A DNA stretch of 64,000 nt, taken from the NCBI GenBank assembly GCA_949287505.1, contig CASEGX010000106.1, forward strand, positions 1 through 64,000, read 5' to 3'. A model generated the notes under the pieces. That model searched no databases and was not told the origin of the DNA. It saw nothing but the letters and a program-made list of their open reading frames with translations. Source of the DNA: an uncultured Spirochaetales bacterium. Lineage in GTDB: Bacteria; Spirochaetota; Spirochaetia; Sphaerochaetales; Sphaerochaetaceae. This document shows, in pieces, positions 21,964 through 50,173 of the stretch (position 1 is its first letter; each line of letters begins with the position of its first letter). Both the position numbers and the translations under genes were made by a program.

Positions 21964-22417
21964 TAACGTCAACCCATCCAGTGCATTCTGATGTCTTCTC
22001 CAGTTCAGGAATTGTCAGCTTGATTGCGCTGTTTGGGGTACCTGCTGCAGGGTAGACAAAATCAAAGCGCTTGAGAGATTCATCAAGGTATACCTTTACT
22101 CCATCATTGAGAGCAAACGGGCAAACGCCTCCGACCGGATGACCTGTGAGTGACTCTACGTCTTCGGCTCCTATCATTCTGGCTTTCTCATGGAATGTAT
22201 CCTTGAATTTTCTGTTGTCAATCTTGCCATCACCGGCAGCTACGATGACTATCGGGCCGGAAGAGAGGATAAAAGACATTGTCTTTGCAATTCTTCCTTC
22301 TTCTGTGCCTAAATCAGCAGCTGCTTCGCGCACTGTCGCGCTGGACTGATCAAAAAGGATGATGTCATTATCCTTGCCGTATTTACCCAGATATTCCCTT
22401 ACTTTCTCGAGTGACAT
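21938..22417 (-). CDS. ybaK: YbaK/EbsC-family aminoacyl-tRNA deacylase
   Basis: Trans-editing protein of 159 residues that hydrolyses mischarged tRNA, typically Cys-tRNA(Pro) or another mischarged tRNA. It has the YbaK fold marks: RIAKTMSFIL with the conserved Lys, IVIVAAGDGKIDNRKFK, HPVGGVCPFAL (the substrate-pocket Gly-Gly-x-x-P-F segment) and a C-terminal GTPNSAIKL. Which amino acid it edits cannot be read from sequence. The ATG at 22417 has no Shine-Dalgarno sequence; a TAGAAT ends exactly 6 nt upstream with TGGAAA 17 bp further, predicting a leaderless transcript. It is divergent from hsp20. Confidence 0.88.
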   Translation of the reverse strand: MSLEKVREYLGKYGKDNDIILFDQSSATVREAAADLGTEEGRIAKTMSFILSSGPIVIVAAGDGKIDNRKFKDTFHEKARMIGAEDVESLTGHPVGGVCPFALNDGVKVYLDESLKRFDFVYPAAGTPNSAIKLTIPELEKTSECTGWVDVTKLPDPQL

Positions 22418-22423
22418 GGCCGG

Positions 22424-22452
22424 ATTCTACCTCTTTGACCCTGTTTTTTCCA
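22424..22452 (-). promoter_or_regulatory. promoter of ybaK (leaderless)
   Basis: TGGAAA (22452-22447), 17 bp, TAGAAT (22429-22424), then 6 nt to the ATG. A TTTGACCC half-site (22434-22441) resembling the hsp20 upstream palindrome lies in the spacer. Confidence 0.5.
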
Positions 22453-22467
22453 TAGTTTGCGGTTGGG

Positions 22468-22484
22468 TGGGTCATTTTGACCCA
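22468..22484. promoter_or_regulatory. palindromic enhancer-like site upstream of hsp20
   Basis: TGGGTCA, TTT, TGACCCA is a perfect 7-3-7 inverted repeat centred about 140 bp upstream of the predicted sigma-54 start site. That is a normal distance for the upstream activating sequence of a sigma-54 activator. A second half-site (TTTGACCC) lies at 22434-22441. Confidence 0.55.
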
Positions 22485-22590
22485 TCTTGGTGCTTTGGTA
22501 CGAACAGATGGTCACAATGATTCTTTTCCGATATCTGATAAAATATAATCAGAATTTATAATTATTTGTATTATATAGAAATGACAAAGT

Positions 22591-42280: not shown

Positions 42281-42307
42281 TGGCTACCATCTGGTAGCCA
42301 TTTTTAT
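42281..42307 (+). terminator. terminator of the polA-coaE operon
   Basis: TGGCTACCA, TC, TGGTAGCCA is a perfect inverted repeat followed by TTTTTATT, and it overlaps the stop codon of convergent epmB. Confidence 0.85.
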
Positions 42308-43338
42308 TCAGGGTAATATCTTGTCTCTCCATCCGGGGTGTCGAAAAGATAGCGGTCCTTGCCGTTTTCGATGGTATGCCCTCTGTAATAGGTGTGTGTA
42401 AGTATCACCTTTCCTCCGCCTTGAGGAAGATCTGCCGTGTATTGAGGCATACCAAGGCCTGAGAGTTCCTTGCGGATGTTCTTCTCGATTTCCAGACCTC
42501 TTTCGATGCTTACGCGGAGATGCTCTGTACCTCGTACCGGGTCGCCCTGAAAAAGATAGTATGGCTTGATTCTTGCCATGAGAAGCCTGTCAGAGAGTTC
42601 TATCAACGTTTTCTCATCATCATTCACGCCTTTTAGGAGTACGCTCTGATTGTATGCCGGGATGCCTGAATCTATGAAAAGAGAGACGGCGTGTACAGCT
42701 TTCTCTGTCAGTTCTGCACCGTGGTTGAATTGCGTCATGAGGAAGAATGGCGCGCCTGTCATATGCTTCTTTATTATTTCGATAAGGTTTTCTGTTATCC
42801 GCTCAGGGTATACTGCGACGGAGCGTGTGCAAAGACGCAGGATGACAGCAGGACATTCCTTTTTGAAAATGGAGAGCATCTGATCTATTTTCTCATCTGA
42901 CAGAGTGAAGAGATCTCCGCCTGTAAGAAGGACTTCCCGTATTTCATCATGCTCTCTGATATATGCTGCGGCTTCTTCTATCTCTCTTGTTGTCGCAGGT
43001 CCTGAAAGATGCCCTGTGAATCTTCTTCTGAAACAATGACGGCAGTAGGCGAAGCACCTGTCTGTCGTGAAGAATGCTGCCCTGTTTCTGTATCTGTGAA
43101 CAAGGCGTTCAGTCCCTTGATGCTCTTTCTCTTCCTGCGGATCGAGTGAGCAGGTCGTATCATCATTCTCTTTTCCGGAAGGTACGAACTGGCGTCTGAT
43201 TGCTGGAATATCAAGTAATTCTTCAACATCATCTGAGATAAGCAATGGCAGGGTATTTGCCCCATCTGGATTCCATGCTTTTTCTTCATCTGTAAGTTTC
43301 AGTATTGCAGAAAGCTCTGCCATCTCCGTGATTGCCAT
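42304..43338 (-). CDS. epmB: EF-P beta-lysylation radical-SAM aminomutase (EpmB / KamA-like)
   Basis: Radical SAM lysine 2,3-aminomutase of 344 residues. The [4Fe-4S] motif is CFAYCRHC (Cys-x3-Cys-x2-Cys), followed by the family segments RRRFTGHLSG, EVLLTGGDLF, LRLCTRS and YYLFQGDPVRGTEHLRV. It is the short EpmB length. With EF-P and EpmA nearby, the expected role is making (R)-beta-lysine for EF-P modification; catabolic lysine aminomutase is less likely. The ATG at 43338 has no Shine-Dalgarno sequence, and TTGTCT-17-TATAAA ends 6 nt before it, predicting a leaderless mRNA. An ATG at 43323 is the alternative. Confidence 0.88.
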   Translation of the reverse strand: MAITEMAELSAILKLTDEEKAWNPDGANTLPLLISDDVEELLDIPAIRRQFVPSGKENDDTTCSLDPQEEKEHQGTERLVHRYRNRAAFFTTDRCFAYCRHCFRRRFTGHLSGPATTREIEEAAAYIREHDEIREVLLTGGDLFTLSDEKIDQMLSIFKKECPAVILRLCTRSVAVYPERITENLIEIIKKHMTGAPFFLMTQFNHGAELTEKAVHAVSLFIDSGIPAYNQSVLLKGVNDDEKTLIELSDRLLMARIKPYYLFQGDPVRGTEHLRVSIERGLEIEKNIRKELSGLGMPQYTADLPQGGGKVILTHTYYRGHTIENGKDRYLFDTPDGETRYYPE

Positions 43339-43344
43339 GCCGAT

Positions 43345-43373
43345 TTTATAGCACCAGTTCAATACTCAGACAA
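43345..43373 (-). promoter_or_regulatory. promoter of epmB (leaderless)
   Basis: TTGTCT (43373-43368), 17 bp, TATAAA (43350-43345), then 6 nt to the ATG at 43338. Confidence 0.5.
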
Positions 43374-44789: not shown

Positions 44790-45353
44790 TCAGCCGTTGA
44801 CTCTTTCGAGATACTCTTTTGTCTCTGTGTTTACTCTGATCTTCTCACCCTGCTTGATGAAGATAGGAACGCGGACGCGGAGACCTGTCTCTGTGGTTAC
44901 ATACTTTGTTGCACCCTGGACTGTATCACCCTTTACTGCTTCCTCTGCCTCGGCAACGGTGAAGACAATCTTTGAAGGAATTGTGATGTCGAGAACCTGA
45001 TCCTCCCAGAATGTTGCACGGTATGTCTCGCCCTCTTTCATGAAATACTCATAATCAGGGAAGGATTTCATAGGAACATCAATCTGATCGAATGTCTCTG
45101 TGTTCTGGAAATAGAAGTTCTCACCATCGTTGTACAGATACTGGAGATCCCTATCCTCCACAGTGATGTCCTCTGCGTTGTCCTGGCTCTTCATTGTCTC
45201 TGAGAGAACCTGTCCTGTTGCCGGGCTCTTGAGCTTGAGACGAACAAAAGCCGATCCCTTTCCAGGGTTGACGAATTCGCGTTCGATGCAGACAAACGGC
45301 TGTCCCTTGATAAGGAGAGCTGTTCCCTTGTCAATCTGACCTGCTTTAATCAT
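44790..45353 (-). CDS. efp: translation elongation factor P
   Basis: EF-P relieves ribosomes stalled at polyproline. The 187-residue product has three beta-barrel domains. The modification loop reads NPGKGSAFVR, with Lys32 at the position of the E. coli lysine that receives beta-lysine. Later marks are YLYNDGENFYFQNTETFDQ and the C-terminal VPIFIKQGEKIRVNT. Retention of the lysine fits the presence of EpmA directly upstream (36-bp gap, same strand) and EpmB nearby. The ATG at 45353 has AGAGG. Confidence 0.96.
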   Translation of the reverse strand: MIKAGQIDKGTALLIKGQPFVCIEREFVNPGKGSAFVRLKLKSPATGQVLSETMKSQDNAEDITVEDRDLQYLYNDGENFYFQNTETFDQIDVPMKSFPDYEYFMKEGETYRATFWEDQVLDITIPSKIVFTVAEAEEAVKGDTVQGATKYVTTETGLRVRVPIFIKQGEKIRVNTETKEYLERVNG

Positions 45354-45389: not shown

Positions 45390-46370
45390 TTACTGCCGTA
45401 GCATATCAGAAAGAGGAAATAAAAGTAAAGGCTCTATGCAATTAAGCCCAAGATGAACGGCGAGAAGACGGTCCAGTCCCATCGCTCCTCCTGAAGATTG
45501 CGGGATATCAAGATCGGGGAAGGAAGGATCTGCGGGAGGAATGGCATCTTCCGTACCGCGTCTCTCATTTTCCATTCTGTTGTATTCCTCTGTGAAGTAT
45601 CTCCGGCTTTCCTCCTTGTCAGTCTCCTCGTCGTAGCAGTTTGCGATTTCTATTCCGGCTATGTACATTTCCCAGCGTTTCTTGGTCGGTTTTCCTTCCG
45701 AATGCCTTGCAAGACATGCGATTTTATCAGGATAGTCAGTGAGATATACTTCTCTGTCCTTTGGCAGGCTGGGTTCTGTATAGGTGAGGAATATCCTGTT
45801 GAATGTATCATCCCAGTTTTCATTGTCATTTGGATTGAGGCCGAGTCTTATGGCTTCTTTCCGGAGATAATCAATATCCTCGGCCTTGTCCATGTCGACT
45901 CCCGCATACTTCATCATCGCCTCATGCATGGTTATTATCAGGGGTTTCTCTCTAAGCCATGGCGCTTCGATGCCCTTTAGCTTTGTCCTCTCGATCATCT
46001 CGATTGTTATATCGATGGAGTCTCTGTCATCTGCACCCACTGTGTAGTATTCGAGCATCGTGAACTCCGGGTTATGCACATCCCCGAGTTGCTCTGCGTT
46101 CCTGAAGCATTGTGAAATCTGGAAAATCGAACCTGAACCGGCAGCGAGGAGACGTTTCATGAAGATCTCCGGAGATGGAATCATATACAGTTCCCTGGAT
46201 CCTGTGAATTCATTGATGAACTTCGTTTCGAAAGTCTTTATTGTCGGTTCTGGAATCAGATAGGGCGATAGAGTAGGTGTCGAGACCTCAAGGTAACCTT
46301 TCTCTATGAAATAAGTCCTTATGTTCATAAGAAGCTCAGAGCGCTTCCTTGCTGCTTGGAAATCGTACAT
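45390..46370 (-). CDS. epmA: EF-P--lysine ligase EpmA (GenX/PoxA)
   Basis: A lysyl-tRNA-synthetase-like enzyme that lacks the anticodon-binding domain and attaches (beta-)lysine to EF-P. It has 326 residues, starts with the first class II region (RTYFIEKGYLEVSTPTLSP) and has motif 2 (FQISQCFRNAEQLGDVHNPEFTMLEYY) and motif 3 (GGAMGLDRLLAVHLG). It is upstream of efp on the same strand. The ATG at 46370 has no Shine-Dalgarno sequence. TTGAAA-17-TACAAT ends exactly 6 nt upstream, strongly predicting a leaderless transcript, and this promoter interleaves with that of divergent mnmE. Confidence 0.94.
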   Translation of the reverse strand: MYDFQAARKRSELLMNIRTYFIEKGYLEVSTPTLSPYLIPEPTIKTFETKFINEFTGSRELYMIPSPEIFMKRLLAAGSGSIFQISQCFRNAEQLGDVHNPEFTMLEYYTVGADDRDSIDITIEMIERTKLKGIEAPWLREKPLIITMHEAMMKYAGVDMDKAEDIDYLRKEAIRLGLNPNDNENWDDTFNRIFLTYTEPSLPKDREVYLTDYPDKIACLARHSEGKPTKKRWEMYIAGIEIANCYDEETDKEESRRYFTEEYNRMENERRGTEDAIPPADPSFPDLDIPQSSGGAMGLDRLLAVHLGLNCIEPLLLFPLSDMLRQ

Positions 46371-46376
46371 GCTGCG

Positions 46377-46405
46377 ATTGTATTGCCCTCATCCCTCAGT
46401 TTCAA
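46377..46405 (-). promoter_or_regulatory. promoter of epmA-efp (leaderless)
   Basis: TTGAAA (46405-46400), 17 bp, TACAAT (46382-46377), then 6 nt to the ATG. The -35 lies in the spacer of the mnmE promoter. Confidence 0.65.
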
Positions 46406-46411
46406 TACTAT
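46383..46411 (+). promoter_or_regulatory. promoter of mnmE operon (leaderless)
   Basis: TTGCCC (46383-46388), 17 bp, TACTAT (46406-46411), then 7 nt to the ATG at 46419. It interleaves with the divergent epmA promoter in the 48-bp gap. Confidence 0.6.
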
Positions 46412-46418
46412 TCAGGGC

Positions 46419-47723
46419 ATGGCACATTACGCTACACAGGAGCCTATCTACGCACTTGCAACTCCATTCTATCCATCTGCCATTGCCGTAATCAGGGCAT
46501 CCGGGGATGGCTGCATTTCCATGTTCCAGCCTTTCTTCTCAGGAAATCTCAGGAAAACCGCATCATCTGTTCATGGCTACATATCCGGCGAGGATGGTCA
46601 TCGTATCGATGAGGTTGTCGTGCTTAAATACGAGAAAGGACATGGGTATACTTCGGAGGAGGCTTTCGAAATCATGTGTCATGGCTCCCTTCCTGTGATA
46701 CGATCCATTCTCCTTCTTCTTGAAAGCATTGGCATGCGTGAGGCATTGAAGGGAGAGTTCACATACAGGGCATTCATGCATGGAAGGATGGATCTGACAG
46801 AAGCTGAAGCAGTGGAAGAAATAGTACGGTCCAAGACAGCAAAGGGGTCGGAGAAAGCCCTTGAGAGACTTTCCGGCTCGATTCTTGCAGAAGCGGACAA
46901 TGCAAAGAACCGCATTCTCGATATCCTTGCATCTCTGGAGGTCCAGCTGGATTACGGAGAGGATGAGATTCCTGAGGACTGGATATTCCCGTCAGGGGAA
47001 ATCGAGGCAATCCGTTCACGGCTTCTTGCAATAGCATCAACATTCCGTTCTTCCAGACTTTGGACTGAAGGTGCTGTTGTCGTGATAGCTGGCCGGACAA
47101 ATGCCGGAAAGAGTTCCCTTTACAATGCAATACTGAAAGAAAACAGAGCAATAGTCTCTCCTGTAGAGGGAACCACAAGGGATTATATAGAGACGGATGC
47201 CGCGATTGCCGGTATCCCGGTACGTCTTTTCGATACTGCAGGACTCAGAGCAACGGATGAAAGCGTCGAAGCTGAAGGAATCAGGCGTACAGAAGCCCTT
47301 ATGGAGAAGGCGGATCTCATTGTCTATGTAATGGATCCTTCCTCTGATGACAGCGCTCCTTCCGGAAAGAACATCCTTCCTGTATATTCCCGCCTGGATC
47401 TTACAGGAAAACATGAGGGACTGTCATTTTCTTCCATAACAGGGGAAGGCCTTGATTCGGTTCTGGAAGCAATTGCTGCCCATCTTACAGATGGTCTTGA
47501 AGTGCTGGAAGGAGTGCCGCAGATAGATTCTGAGCGCCAGATGCGAAAACTCAAGGAAGCAGCCTCAGCCCTTTTTGATGCAGAGAAGAGTCAGAGCTTC
47601 GGTTATGATGTCATAGCGATGTATCTGCAGAGTGCTCTTACATCTCTTGGTGAGCTGACAGGGGAAGTGACGGGTGAGGATGTTCTTGAGAGATTGTTCT
47701 CATCTTTCTGTCTAGGTAAATGA
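46419..47723 (+). CDS. mnmE: tRNA modification GTPase MnmE
   Basis: With MnmG it makes the 5-(carboxymethyl)aminomethyl modification at wobble uridine 34 of certain tRNAs. It has 434 residues: an N-terminal tetrahydrofolate-binding domain (IYALATPFYPSAIAVIRASG), helical regions, and an inserted G domain with GRTNAGKSS (about residue 225), GTTRDYIE and FDTAGLR. The C terminus is FCLGK, the conserved Cys-x-Gly-Lys. The ATG at 46419 fits the family start; a longer in-frame start at 46356 would overlap epmA and its promoter. No Shine-Dalgarno sequence is present. mnmG follows after 1 bp. Confidence 0.96.
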   Translation: MAHYATQEPIYALATPFYPSAIAVIRASGDGCISMFQPFFSGNLRKTASSVHGYISGEDGHRIDEVVVLKYEKGHGYTSEEAFEIMCHGSLPVIRSILLLLESIGMREALKGEFTYRAFMHGRMDLTEAEAVEEIVRSKTAKGSEKALERLSGSILAEADNAKNRILDILASLEVQLDYGEDEIPEDWIFPSGEIEAIRSRLLAIASTFRSSRLWTEGAVVVIAGRTNAGKSSLYNAILKENRAIVSPVEGTTRDYIETDAAIAGIPVRLFDTAGLRATDESVEAEGIRRTEALMEKADLIVYVMDPSSDDSAPSGKNILPVYSRLDLTGKHEGLSFSSITGEGLDSVLEAIAAHLTDGLEVLEGVPQIDSERQMRKLKEAASALFDAEKSQSFGYDVIAMYLQSALTSLGELTGEVTGEDVLERLFSSFCLGK

Positions 47724-47724
47724 T

Positions 47725-49530
47725 ATGCGTGATTATGATGCGATAGTAATAGGTGGCGGACATGCCGGAATCGAAGCCTCTCTGGCACTTTCAAGAGAAG
47801 GATTCAACACACTTTTGATAACCCAGTCGCTGGATGCGATAGGACGCATGAGCTGCAATCCTTCAATAGGAGGACTTGCTAAGGGAAATCTTGTCAGAGA
47901 GATCGATGCCCTTGGCGGTGAGATGGGGCATCTTATCGACAGCACGATGATACAGATGCGCATGCTTAACAAACGAAGGGGGCCTGCGGTACAGGCTCCT
48001 CGTGCACAGGCTGACAAATTCAGCTATTCAAGGCTTGCAAAGGAAACGCTTGAGCGTGAATCCCATCTTTCCCTTTTCATGGATACAGTGACAGATCTCA
48101 TTGTCGATGAAAGCACAAGGAAAGTGTGCGGAGTGGTCACTGAAAGGGGCTGGAAGATAGGATCCTCCGTAGTTGTCCTTACCACCGGTACATTCATGGA
48201 TGGAAAGATCTTCATAGGTGAGTACGATGCGCCGTGCGGACGTCTTTCAGAAAGTGCCGCAATCGGTCTTGGCGACAGCCTCAGGCGTCTTGGGTTCCAT
48301 ACAGGGCGCATGAAGACGGGAACGCCCGCACGCGTACGTTTGAGCTCACTTGACCTTGACGAGATGGAGGTTCAGGACGGAGACAGCCCGATGCTCCCGT
48401 TCTCATTCGACACGGAATCCATCAACCGGCCATCCTTGCCATGCTATGTGACTTATACTAACGATGAGACTCACAGGATAATCCGCGAAAACATCTCACG
48501 TTCTCCTCTCTATGGTGGAAAGATCATCGGCAAAGGTCCCCGCTATTGTCCTTCAATTGAGGATAAGGTTGTGCGTTTTCCGGACAGGGAGAGGCATCAG
48601 ATCTTTGTGGAACCTGAGGGTATTGGAACAGAGGAAATGTATCTTAATGGACTTTCTTCATCGCTTCCTGAGGATGTGCAGCATGCATTCATACATTCGA
48701 TTCCAGGGCTTCGTCATGCTGAAATCATGAGACCTGCGTATGCAGTCGAATATGATTACCTTGATCCGCTTGATCTCTATCCATCTCTGGAAAGCAAGAT
48801 ACTTGCCAATCTTTTCATAGCAGGTCAGACGAACGGCACCTCCGGCTATGAGGAAGCTGCTGCACAGGGCCTTGTTGCCGGAATCAATGCAGCAGAGCGT
48901 CTAAAGGGTGAGAAGCCGCTGATCCTCTCACGTACAGAGTCATATATAGGAGTTCTCATCGATGACCTTGTGACAAAGGGGACAAAAGAGCCTTACAGGA
49001 TGTTCACATCAAGGGCAGAATACAGGCTATCACTCCGCCATGATACGGCGGACCAGAGACTGACTGCCAAGGGCTATTCCGTCGGACTTGTGAAGAAAGA
49101 CAAGATGGACAGGCTTGAAAGAAAGAGCGAGGATATCCGGCGTGTGAAGGAAATACTCCAGCATACGAAAGCCGGAGACAAGAGTGCCTATGATGCCCTG
49201 AAAGAGCCTGAAAAAGATATAATGACGCTCTCAATTCCCGCTCTCTCCTCATATCCTGAGAGCATTCTGCGAGAGGCTGAGCTGGATATAAGGTATTCCG
49301 GATACATCGACAGGCAGGAACGGGAACTGGAAAAAGCAAGGAAAGCGGAGAATATGGAGATTCCTGAGGATTTCGATTATGATTCAGTTGATGGCATCTC
49401 CAGCGAGTCCAGAGAAAAACTGAAGACAATCCGTCCGGTTTCCATAGGACAGGCAGGAAGGATTTCCGGTGTCAGAGTCTCTGATATAGCTATACTGGCA
49501 GTTGCCGTAAGGAGCATGAAGCGTGGATAA
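47725..49530 (+). CDS. mnmG: tRNA uridine-5-carboxymethylaminomethyl modification enzyme MnmG
   Basis: FAD-dependent partner of MnmE, 601 residues. It opens with the dinucleotide motif VIGGGHAGIEASLA, followed by GRMSCNPSIGGLAKGNLVREIDALGG, the typical MnmG block. Later segments include GTFMDGKIFIGE, GRMKTGTPARV, the FAD motif NLFIAGQTNGTSGYEEAAAQGL, and the C-terminal helical region for tRNA binding. It follows mnmE after 1 bp and overlaps rsmG by 8 bp, so translation is coupled. Confidence 0.96.
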   Translation: MRDYDAIVIGGGHAGIEASLALSREGFNTLLITQSLDAIGRMSCNPSIGGLAKGNLVREIDALGGEMGHLIDSTMIQMRMLNKRRGPAVQAPRAQADKFSYSRLAKETLERESHLSLFMDTVTDLIVDESTRKVCGVVTERGWKIGSSVVVLTTGTFMDGKIFIGEYDAPCGRLSESAAIGLGDSLRRLGFHTGRMKTGTPARVRLSSLDLDEMEVQDGDSPMLPFSFDTESINRPSLPCYVTYTNDETHRIIRENISRSPLYGGKIIGKGPRYCPSIEDKVVRFPDRERHQIFVEPEGIGTEEMYLNGLSSSLPEDVQHAFIHSIPGLRHAEIMRPAYAVEYDYLDPLDLYPSLESKILANLFIAGQTNGTSGYEEAAAQGLVAGINAAERLKGEKPLILSRTESYIGVLIDDLVTKGTKEPYRMFTSRAEYRLSLRHDTADQRLTAKGYSVGLVKKDKMDRLERKSEDIRRVKEILQHTKAGDKSAYDALKEPEKDIMTLSIPALSSYPESILREAELDIRYSGYIDRQERELEKARKAENMEIPEDFDYDSVDGISSESREKLKTIRPVSIGQAGRISGVRVSDIAILAVAVRSMKRG

Positions 49531-50173
49531 GGAGCTTTTGATTTCAGGACTGGAACGGATTGGTGTGGATGCTGATGACAGTGTGATTGACTGTCTTTCC
49601 CGTTTCGTCAGTGAGATCATGCTTTTCAATCCTGCACTTAAACTTGTCGGGGACAAAATACCTGATGAGATTATAATAAGACATGTACTGGATTCAGCTG
49701 CCGCTTATCCAGTATTCAAGAAGGAGACCAGGGCAGGGAGTACGATTGCGGATCTTGGTTCAGGGGCAGGCTTTCCTGGTGTTGTGCTTGCATCCCTTTT
49801 CCCGGATAGGCATTTTGTACTGATTGAACGTATGCAAAGGCGTTCTCAGTTCCTGAAGGGAGTCCTTATCAGGACGGGACTGAAGAATGCAGAGGTTGAA
49901 GAGAGAGACCTCAGGACGGTCAAAAGCGCATTTGATGCTGTCACTTGCAGGGCGTTTCATCCCATTTTCTCCATTGCAGAGGATGTTTCAAGGATCCTCT
50001 CTCCGGGGGCGCCGCTTCTTCTTTATAAAGGGCAGAGGAATAATGTATTGTCGGAGCTCGATGTGCTCAGGGGAGAGAACTACAGCTTCGACGAACAGTT
50101 AGTGGATCTTCGCGTCCCCTATCTCGATGAGACCAGGACCATGGTGGTCCTCAGGAATCTGATTAAGAAATGA
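49523..50173 (+). CDS. rsmG: 16S rRNA (guanine527-N7)-methyltransferase RsmG
   Basis: SAM-dependent methyltransferase (formerly GidB) of 216 residues that methylates G527 of 16S rRNA. It has NPALKLVGDK, the HVLDSAA segment, the SAM motif IADLGSGAGFPGVVLA, ERMQRRSQFL and the TCRAFHPI region. It starts with GTG at 49523 inside the end of mnmG, with AAGGAG at good spacing. The start of ftsK overlaps its stop by 4 bp. The mnmE-mnmG-rsmG order is widespread; loss of rsmG gives low-level streptomycin resistance in other bacteria. Confidence 0.94.
   Translation: MDKELLISGLERIGVDADDSVIDCLSRFVSEIMLFNPALKLVGDKIPDEIIIRHVLDSAAAYPVFKKETRAGSTIADLGSGAGFPGVVLASLFPDRHFVLIERMQRRSQFLKGVLIRTGLKNAEVEERDLRTVKSAFDAVTCRAFHPIFSIAEDVSRILSPGAPLLLYKGQRNNVLSELDVLRGENYSFDEQLVDLRVPYLDETRTMVVLRNLIKK

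Follow-up and report, generated by a model that had tools for sequence, protein, structure and literature searches.

The window analysed here is a stretch of 64,000 nucleotides from a MAG of 2.29 Mb, whose close relatives, where named, are MAGs of uncultured Spirochaetaceae and of Candidatus Ornithospirochaeta, the latter known from the chicken gut (PMC8035907). Two sets of genes diverge from a very short region of this window. On the minus strand, a gene for an EF-P beta-lysine ligase-like protein of the EpmA/GenX type (epmA, 45,390–46,370; TIGR00462, E = 4.8e-74, 249.5 bits, under the curated cutoff of 286.9) is followed by efp, encoding elongation factor P (44,790–45,353; TIGR00038, E = 1.8e-63, over the cutoff), and a gene for a KamA/EpmB-like aminomutase lies past an oppositely oriented MFS gene. 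The aminomutase-like product (42,304–43,362), a KamA-family radical SAM protein, matches the models of glutamate and lysine 2,3-aminomutase better than that of EpmB and stays under each of the three curated cutoffs, so that its role as EpmB is unsure. The plus strand carries, in this order, the tRNA U34 modification GTPase gene mnmE (46,419–47,723; TIGR00450, E = 8.8e-94, over the cutoff), the tRNA U34 modification enzyme gene mnmG (47,725–49,530, 1 nt past the mnmE stop; TIGR00136, E = 4.1e-249, over the cutoff), rsmG and an ftsK-like gene. The start codons of epmA and mnmE are backed by conserved N-termini (MYDFxAARKRSELLMN and MAHYxTxEPIYALATP, respectively). An MnmE query was matched in 100 of the 100 relatives searched, and epmA was found divergent and upstream of mnmE in every same-genus locus retrieved.

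Geometry and conservation of the two promoters

Just 48 bp separate the ATG of epmA (46,368–46,370, minus strand) from that of mnmE (46,419–46,421, plus strand). Reading towards epmA, there is a -35 hexamer TTGAAA (46,400–46,405, minus strand), a 17-bp spacer and a -10 hexamer TACAAT (46,377–46,382, minus strand) ending 6 nt before the ATG, whereas the mnmE side presents TTGCCC (46,383–46,388, plus strand), again a 17-bp spacer, and TACTAT (46,406–46,411, plus strand) 7 nt before the ATG. Both promoters fit into 35 bp (46,377–46,411), their core elements occupy the same DNA, and each -35 lies inside the spacer of the other promoter, flush with the other's -10, which leaves a central 11 bp common to both spacers (46,389–46,399, no strand assigned). 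This arrangement had been described in a first-pass annotation of the sequence and is exact to the base. The same annotation reported both genes to lack a Shine-Dalgarno sequence, in agreement with a score of 0 for each of them; an AGGG 1 nt upstream of the mnmE start codon lies too near to serve as one and is not conserved. The distance between the boxes is that of sigma70-type promoters (16–18 bp), although taken alone the mnmE promoter is weak, with 8 of 12 matches to the E. coli consensus (4 of 6 in each hexamer), which is why a consensus scan lists only the epmA promoter.

None of 400,000 shuffles of the 48-mer yielded both promoters at these distances, and the single-side rates were 0.0036 and 0.0007, with a product of 2.5e-6. 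Chance origin is excluded by the fact that both promoters are held in place across a clade of 15 species, hereafter the 48-bp clade. The interlocked pattern has a single copy in the whole source genome, at epmA-mnmE. A search of 47 genomes for it as a regulon operator motif returned this one copy in the source genome without any further loci recurring as a set, and this candidate was rejected.

The 15 species have intergenic regions of 47–50 bp and keep ATTGTATTGCCC-N11-TT[TG]CAATA[CG]TAT, one of them (L009) with one inserted base. Conservation of the hexamers in relatives that keep the gene pair was a check proposed beforehand, and the clade indeed retains both promoters: the epmA -10 and the mnmE -35 are identical in 15/15, the mnmE -10 is TACTAT in 13 and TAGTAT in 2, and the epmA -35 is TTGCAA in about half of the clade, with an epmA spacer of 17 bp in all and spacers of 17–18 bp overall. 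Mean pairwise difference, averaged over 91 pairs from 14 of the 15 species, was 0.033 for the 24 hexamer columns, compared with 0.570 for the 11 central columns, which are mostly unconstrained, and 0.647 for the fourfold-degenerate sites of both genes, so the constraint sits on the hexamers. In L009 the extra base is taken up on the mnmE side (spacer 18 rather than 17, gap 6 rather than 7), suggesting that indels within the clade preserve promoter function. Positions 46,386–46,388, which close the mnmE -35, are invariant in the 15 species with just one consensus match among them, which is more than a -35 needs, and this CCC may reflect a further constraint such as a bound regulator. An AG beside the epmA -35 is nearly invariant as well.

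Leaderless transcription of epmA and mnmE

A -10 box 6–8 nt before the start codon, one of the marks of leaderless genes, is present in front of both genes. Among the 45 genus and family loci with an unshifted start, a TANNNT ends at that distance from the ATG in 45/45 cases for epmA and 42/45 for mnmE, against ~8% in shuffles; these loci are related, and thus not independent samples, with the intergenic sequence around the boxes almost wholly diverged among them. When the 51 loci with an assignable -10 on both sides are considered, the epmA gap is 6 in 41, 7 in 7 and 8 in 3, under an assignment rule that favours gaps near 6.5, so that the 45 unconditioned loci offer the fairer test. In other families of the class, mnmE often shows the TANNNT signal before its ATG too. 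Altogether, leaderless transcription of both epmA and mnmE, which had been predicted in the first-pass annotation, is strongly supported by these comparisons. Transcription would begin at the ATG of epmA and within one base of that of mnmE, and both mRNAs would be translated without a Shine-Dalgarno sequence. From mnmE to the ftsK-like gene (47,720–50,173), neighbouring genes lie 1 nt apart or share 4–8 nt, so a leaderless first cistron probably heads a translationally coupled operon.

Genome-wide figures come from a 270-kb sample, made up of the window and 20 other stretches of the source genome, with simple ORF calling. Of the 179 genes in this sample, 14 have a TANNNT whose end lies 6 nt ahead of the first ATG and 9 have one ending at 7 nt, against about 3 for other positions, and the ATG-proximal signal occurs in roughly a tenth of the sampled genes. 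Moreover, a TTG at spacer 17 is the enrichment peak upstream of these boxes, and 5 of 27 divergent pairs carry ATG-proximal boxes on both sides. In the source genome, leaderless mRNAs are thus probably a normal form of expression. Further divergent pairs of this genome in which each gene has a candidate leaderless -10 box, 62–163 bp apart, are L080:17,590–17,653, L075:10,160–10,241, L073:12,024–12,112 and positions 22,417–22,581 of the window.

In the parts of the published reports considered here, leaderless genes with a -10 adjoining the ORF are known across many phyla (PMC3160421; PMC12340547), they were predicted in 6 of 18 spirochete genomes (PMC3160421), and leaderless mRNAs were found to be common in Leptospira by dRNA-seq (PMC5243855). 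The present genes resemble those of PMC3160421, of Deinococcus-Thermus (PMC12340547) and of Leptospira (PMC5243855) in the TANNNT some 12 bp ahead of the start codon and in the commonness of leaderless mRNAs; in those same parts the signal is described gene by gene, whereas here both divergent partners are leaderless and interlocked. For Sphaerochaeta, the literature searched held nothing directly matching on leaderless transcription.

Promoter layouts among relatives

Loci of the same genus and family were classed by the offset of one -35 box from the other, and in the relatives these boxes were picked by a scoring rule. The interleaved class comprises the window's clade and L046, the latter with weak boxes, at an offset of -17, together with L042 and L043 at -11. 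In L017 and L020–L022 the two -35s overlap by three bases, and in L015, L018, L019, L023, L024, L026, L036, L039 and L048, this last from another genus, they are identical: one palindromic TTGCAA (within 2,809–2,872 of L018) is the apparent -35 of both divergent leaderless promoters, with spacers of 17–18 bp each way. The remaining loci have separate promoters, with offsets from +7 to +65. The distance between start codons ranges from 47–54 bp in interleaved loci to 64–71 bp with a shared -35 and up to 131 bp with fully separate promoters. The interlock itself is therefore not conserved, given that sister species share a -35 and others have separate promoters. When the shared TTGCAA with its exact 17/17 spacing was tried as a general motif, it gave scattered single matches, and nothing directly matching divergent promoters that share a -35 turned up in the literature searched.

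The rooted protein tree gives the window's clade a sister group of shared-35 species, at a node with support of 92/89, short of full support, and places it within a larger group of shared and overlapping forms. Most likely, the window's form derived from the shared-35 form by a deletion of 16–17 bp between TTGCAATA and the mnmE -10, which would have converted TTGCAATA...CATACAAT into TTGCAATACAAT and brought the mnmE -10 beside the epmA -35. The mnmE promoter would then have adopted a new -35, TTGCCC, 17 bp further upstream, at a position that reads TTACTC in the sister clade. The distance of 17 bp between the new and the old -35 fits a deletion of that size, and the nesting of the clade beside shared-35 species also speaks for this derivation.

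Several known systems come close to this layout. The Pr and Pc promoters of the Bacillus plasmid pLS20 are also divergent and of sigma-A type, with the -10 and -35 of one at the -35 and -10 of the other, but their hexamers coincide, whereas those of epmA-mnmE abut; of the pLS20 pair, one is weak and depends on the regulator RcoLS20, there is DNA looping, and a long distance separates Pc from its first gene (PMC4207663). In the EcoRV and CfrBI restriction-modification systems the divergent cores overlap and polymerase at one excludes the other, an exclusion suggested here by the geometry; unlike the present case, EcoRV is regulated by a dedicated C protein, and its C transcript is not leaderless (PMC5333194). 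The bidirectional promoters of E. coli, as is predicted for our locus, drive transcription both ways from one short sequence and compete sterically, but they have a common -10 and starts mostly 10–23 bp apart (PMC12825309), whereas the epmA and mnmE starts are predicted ~48 bp apart, there is no shared -10, and in the sister species the shared element is the -35. The locus falls outside the definition of Warman et al. (shared -10, starts ~10–23 bp apart), its -10s being 29 bp apart start to start, and belongs instead, with core elements on the same DNA, to the overlapping divergent promoters of the pLS20 and EcoRV kind. Although confirmed in the sequence and kept by relatives, the layout joins two known arrangements rather than being a new one. 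In the limited literature searched, we found no description of the leaderless and interlocked combination or of a series from shared -35 to interleaved forms.

Exclusion, regulation and compaction

The footprint of RNA polymerase should rule out the presence of two holoenzymes together on such a short site. From the geometry, only one polymerase at a time would occupy the epmA-mnmE site, so that the promoters would take turns, and initiation rates would decide how much this matters. The first-pass annotation went further and proposed that the two operons may be mutually exclusive or balanced by competition, which finds no support in the spacing among relatives, running from interleaved to separate (131 bp), or in the E. 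coli case, where basal activity is too low: each of the five bidirectional promoters tested lacked the strength for competition until one side was activated (PMC12825309). With layouts in the genus and family that are interleaved, share a -35 or are fully separate, exclusion is not a maintained feature. Relatives keep ATG-adjacent promoters while losing the overlap, and the simplest reading is that selection holds two promoters and not exclusion.

A selected regulatory device, in which polymerase competition balances EF-P modification with that of tRNA U34 or reduces noise in the two, would account for a layout held in 15 species with fourfold sites near saturation, for two operons that both act in translation, and would have precedents in the competition modelled for EcoRV (PMC5333194) and in the E. 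coli promoters once one side is strongly activated (PMC12825309). Such conservation is equally expected from the fact that any shift breaks one promoter, though, and the same gene pair in relatives has shared-35, back-to-back or fully separate promoters; with the lack of basal competition at the five E. coli promoters, we regard this device as unlikely, even if regulation might balance EF-P against tRNA modification within the 48-bp clade. A broader version, with genus-wide 'zero-leader' divergent pairs in spirochetes whose sole intergenic DNA is two interlocked core promoters, switching between shared-35 and interleaved forms, and polymerase alternation fixing the ratio of EF-P to U34 modification, seems to us quite unlikely.

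The inverted repeat GTATTG-N17-CAATAC might also be read as the operator of a transcription factor controlling both genes. Its dyad is near-perfect, and the invariant CCC and nearly invariant AG would agree with a bound protein; yet the two TA|TTG junctions of interlocked promoters produce such a dyad by themselves, the interlocked pattern is present once in the genome, and sister clades drop the spacing and keep the promoters, making an operator very improbable. Finally, each single promoter is unremarkable in a consensus scan, as would be expected if an unrecognised promoter further upstream gave one or both mRNAs a longer leader, with the boxes near the ATG being chance or minor. Boxes conserved at a fixed distance from the ATG, the lack of Shine-Dalgarno sequences and the 6–7 nt peak in the genome sample make this reading extremely improbable.

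In summary, the 48-bp region is very probably a minimal interlocked divergent double promoter for the housekeeping sigma factor, giving two leaderless mRNAs and likely derived by deletion, with exclusion as a probable by-product of compaction, since turn-taking at ordinary initiation rates probably costs little. As such, it illustrates the small size to which the control region of a divergent bacterial gene pair can shrink when both mRNAs are leaderless. The genus offers a natural series of shared-35, interleaved and separate forms for probing the regulatory effect of promoter overlap. Moreover, an uncultured clade of gut spirochetes is added to the apparent wide users of leaderless mRNAs, which is relevant to the annotation of their start codons.
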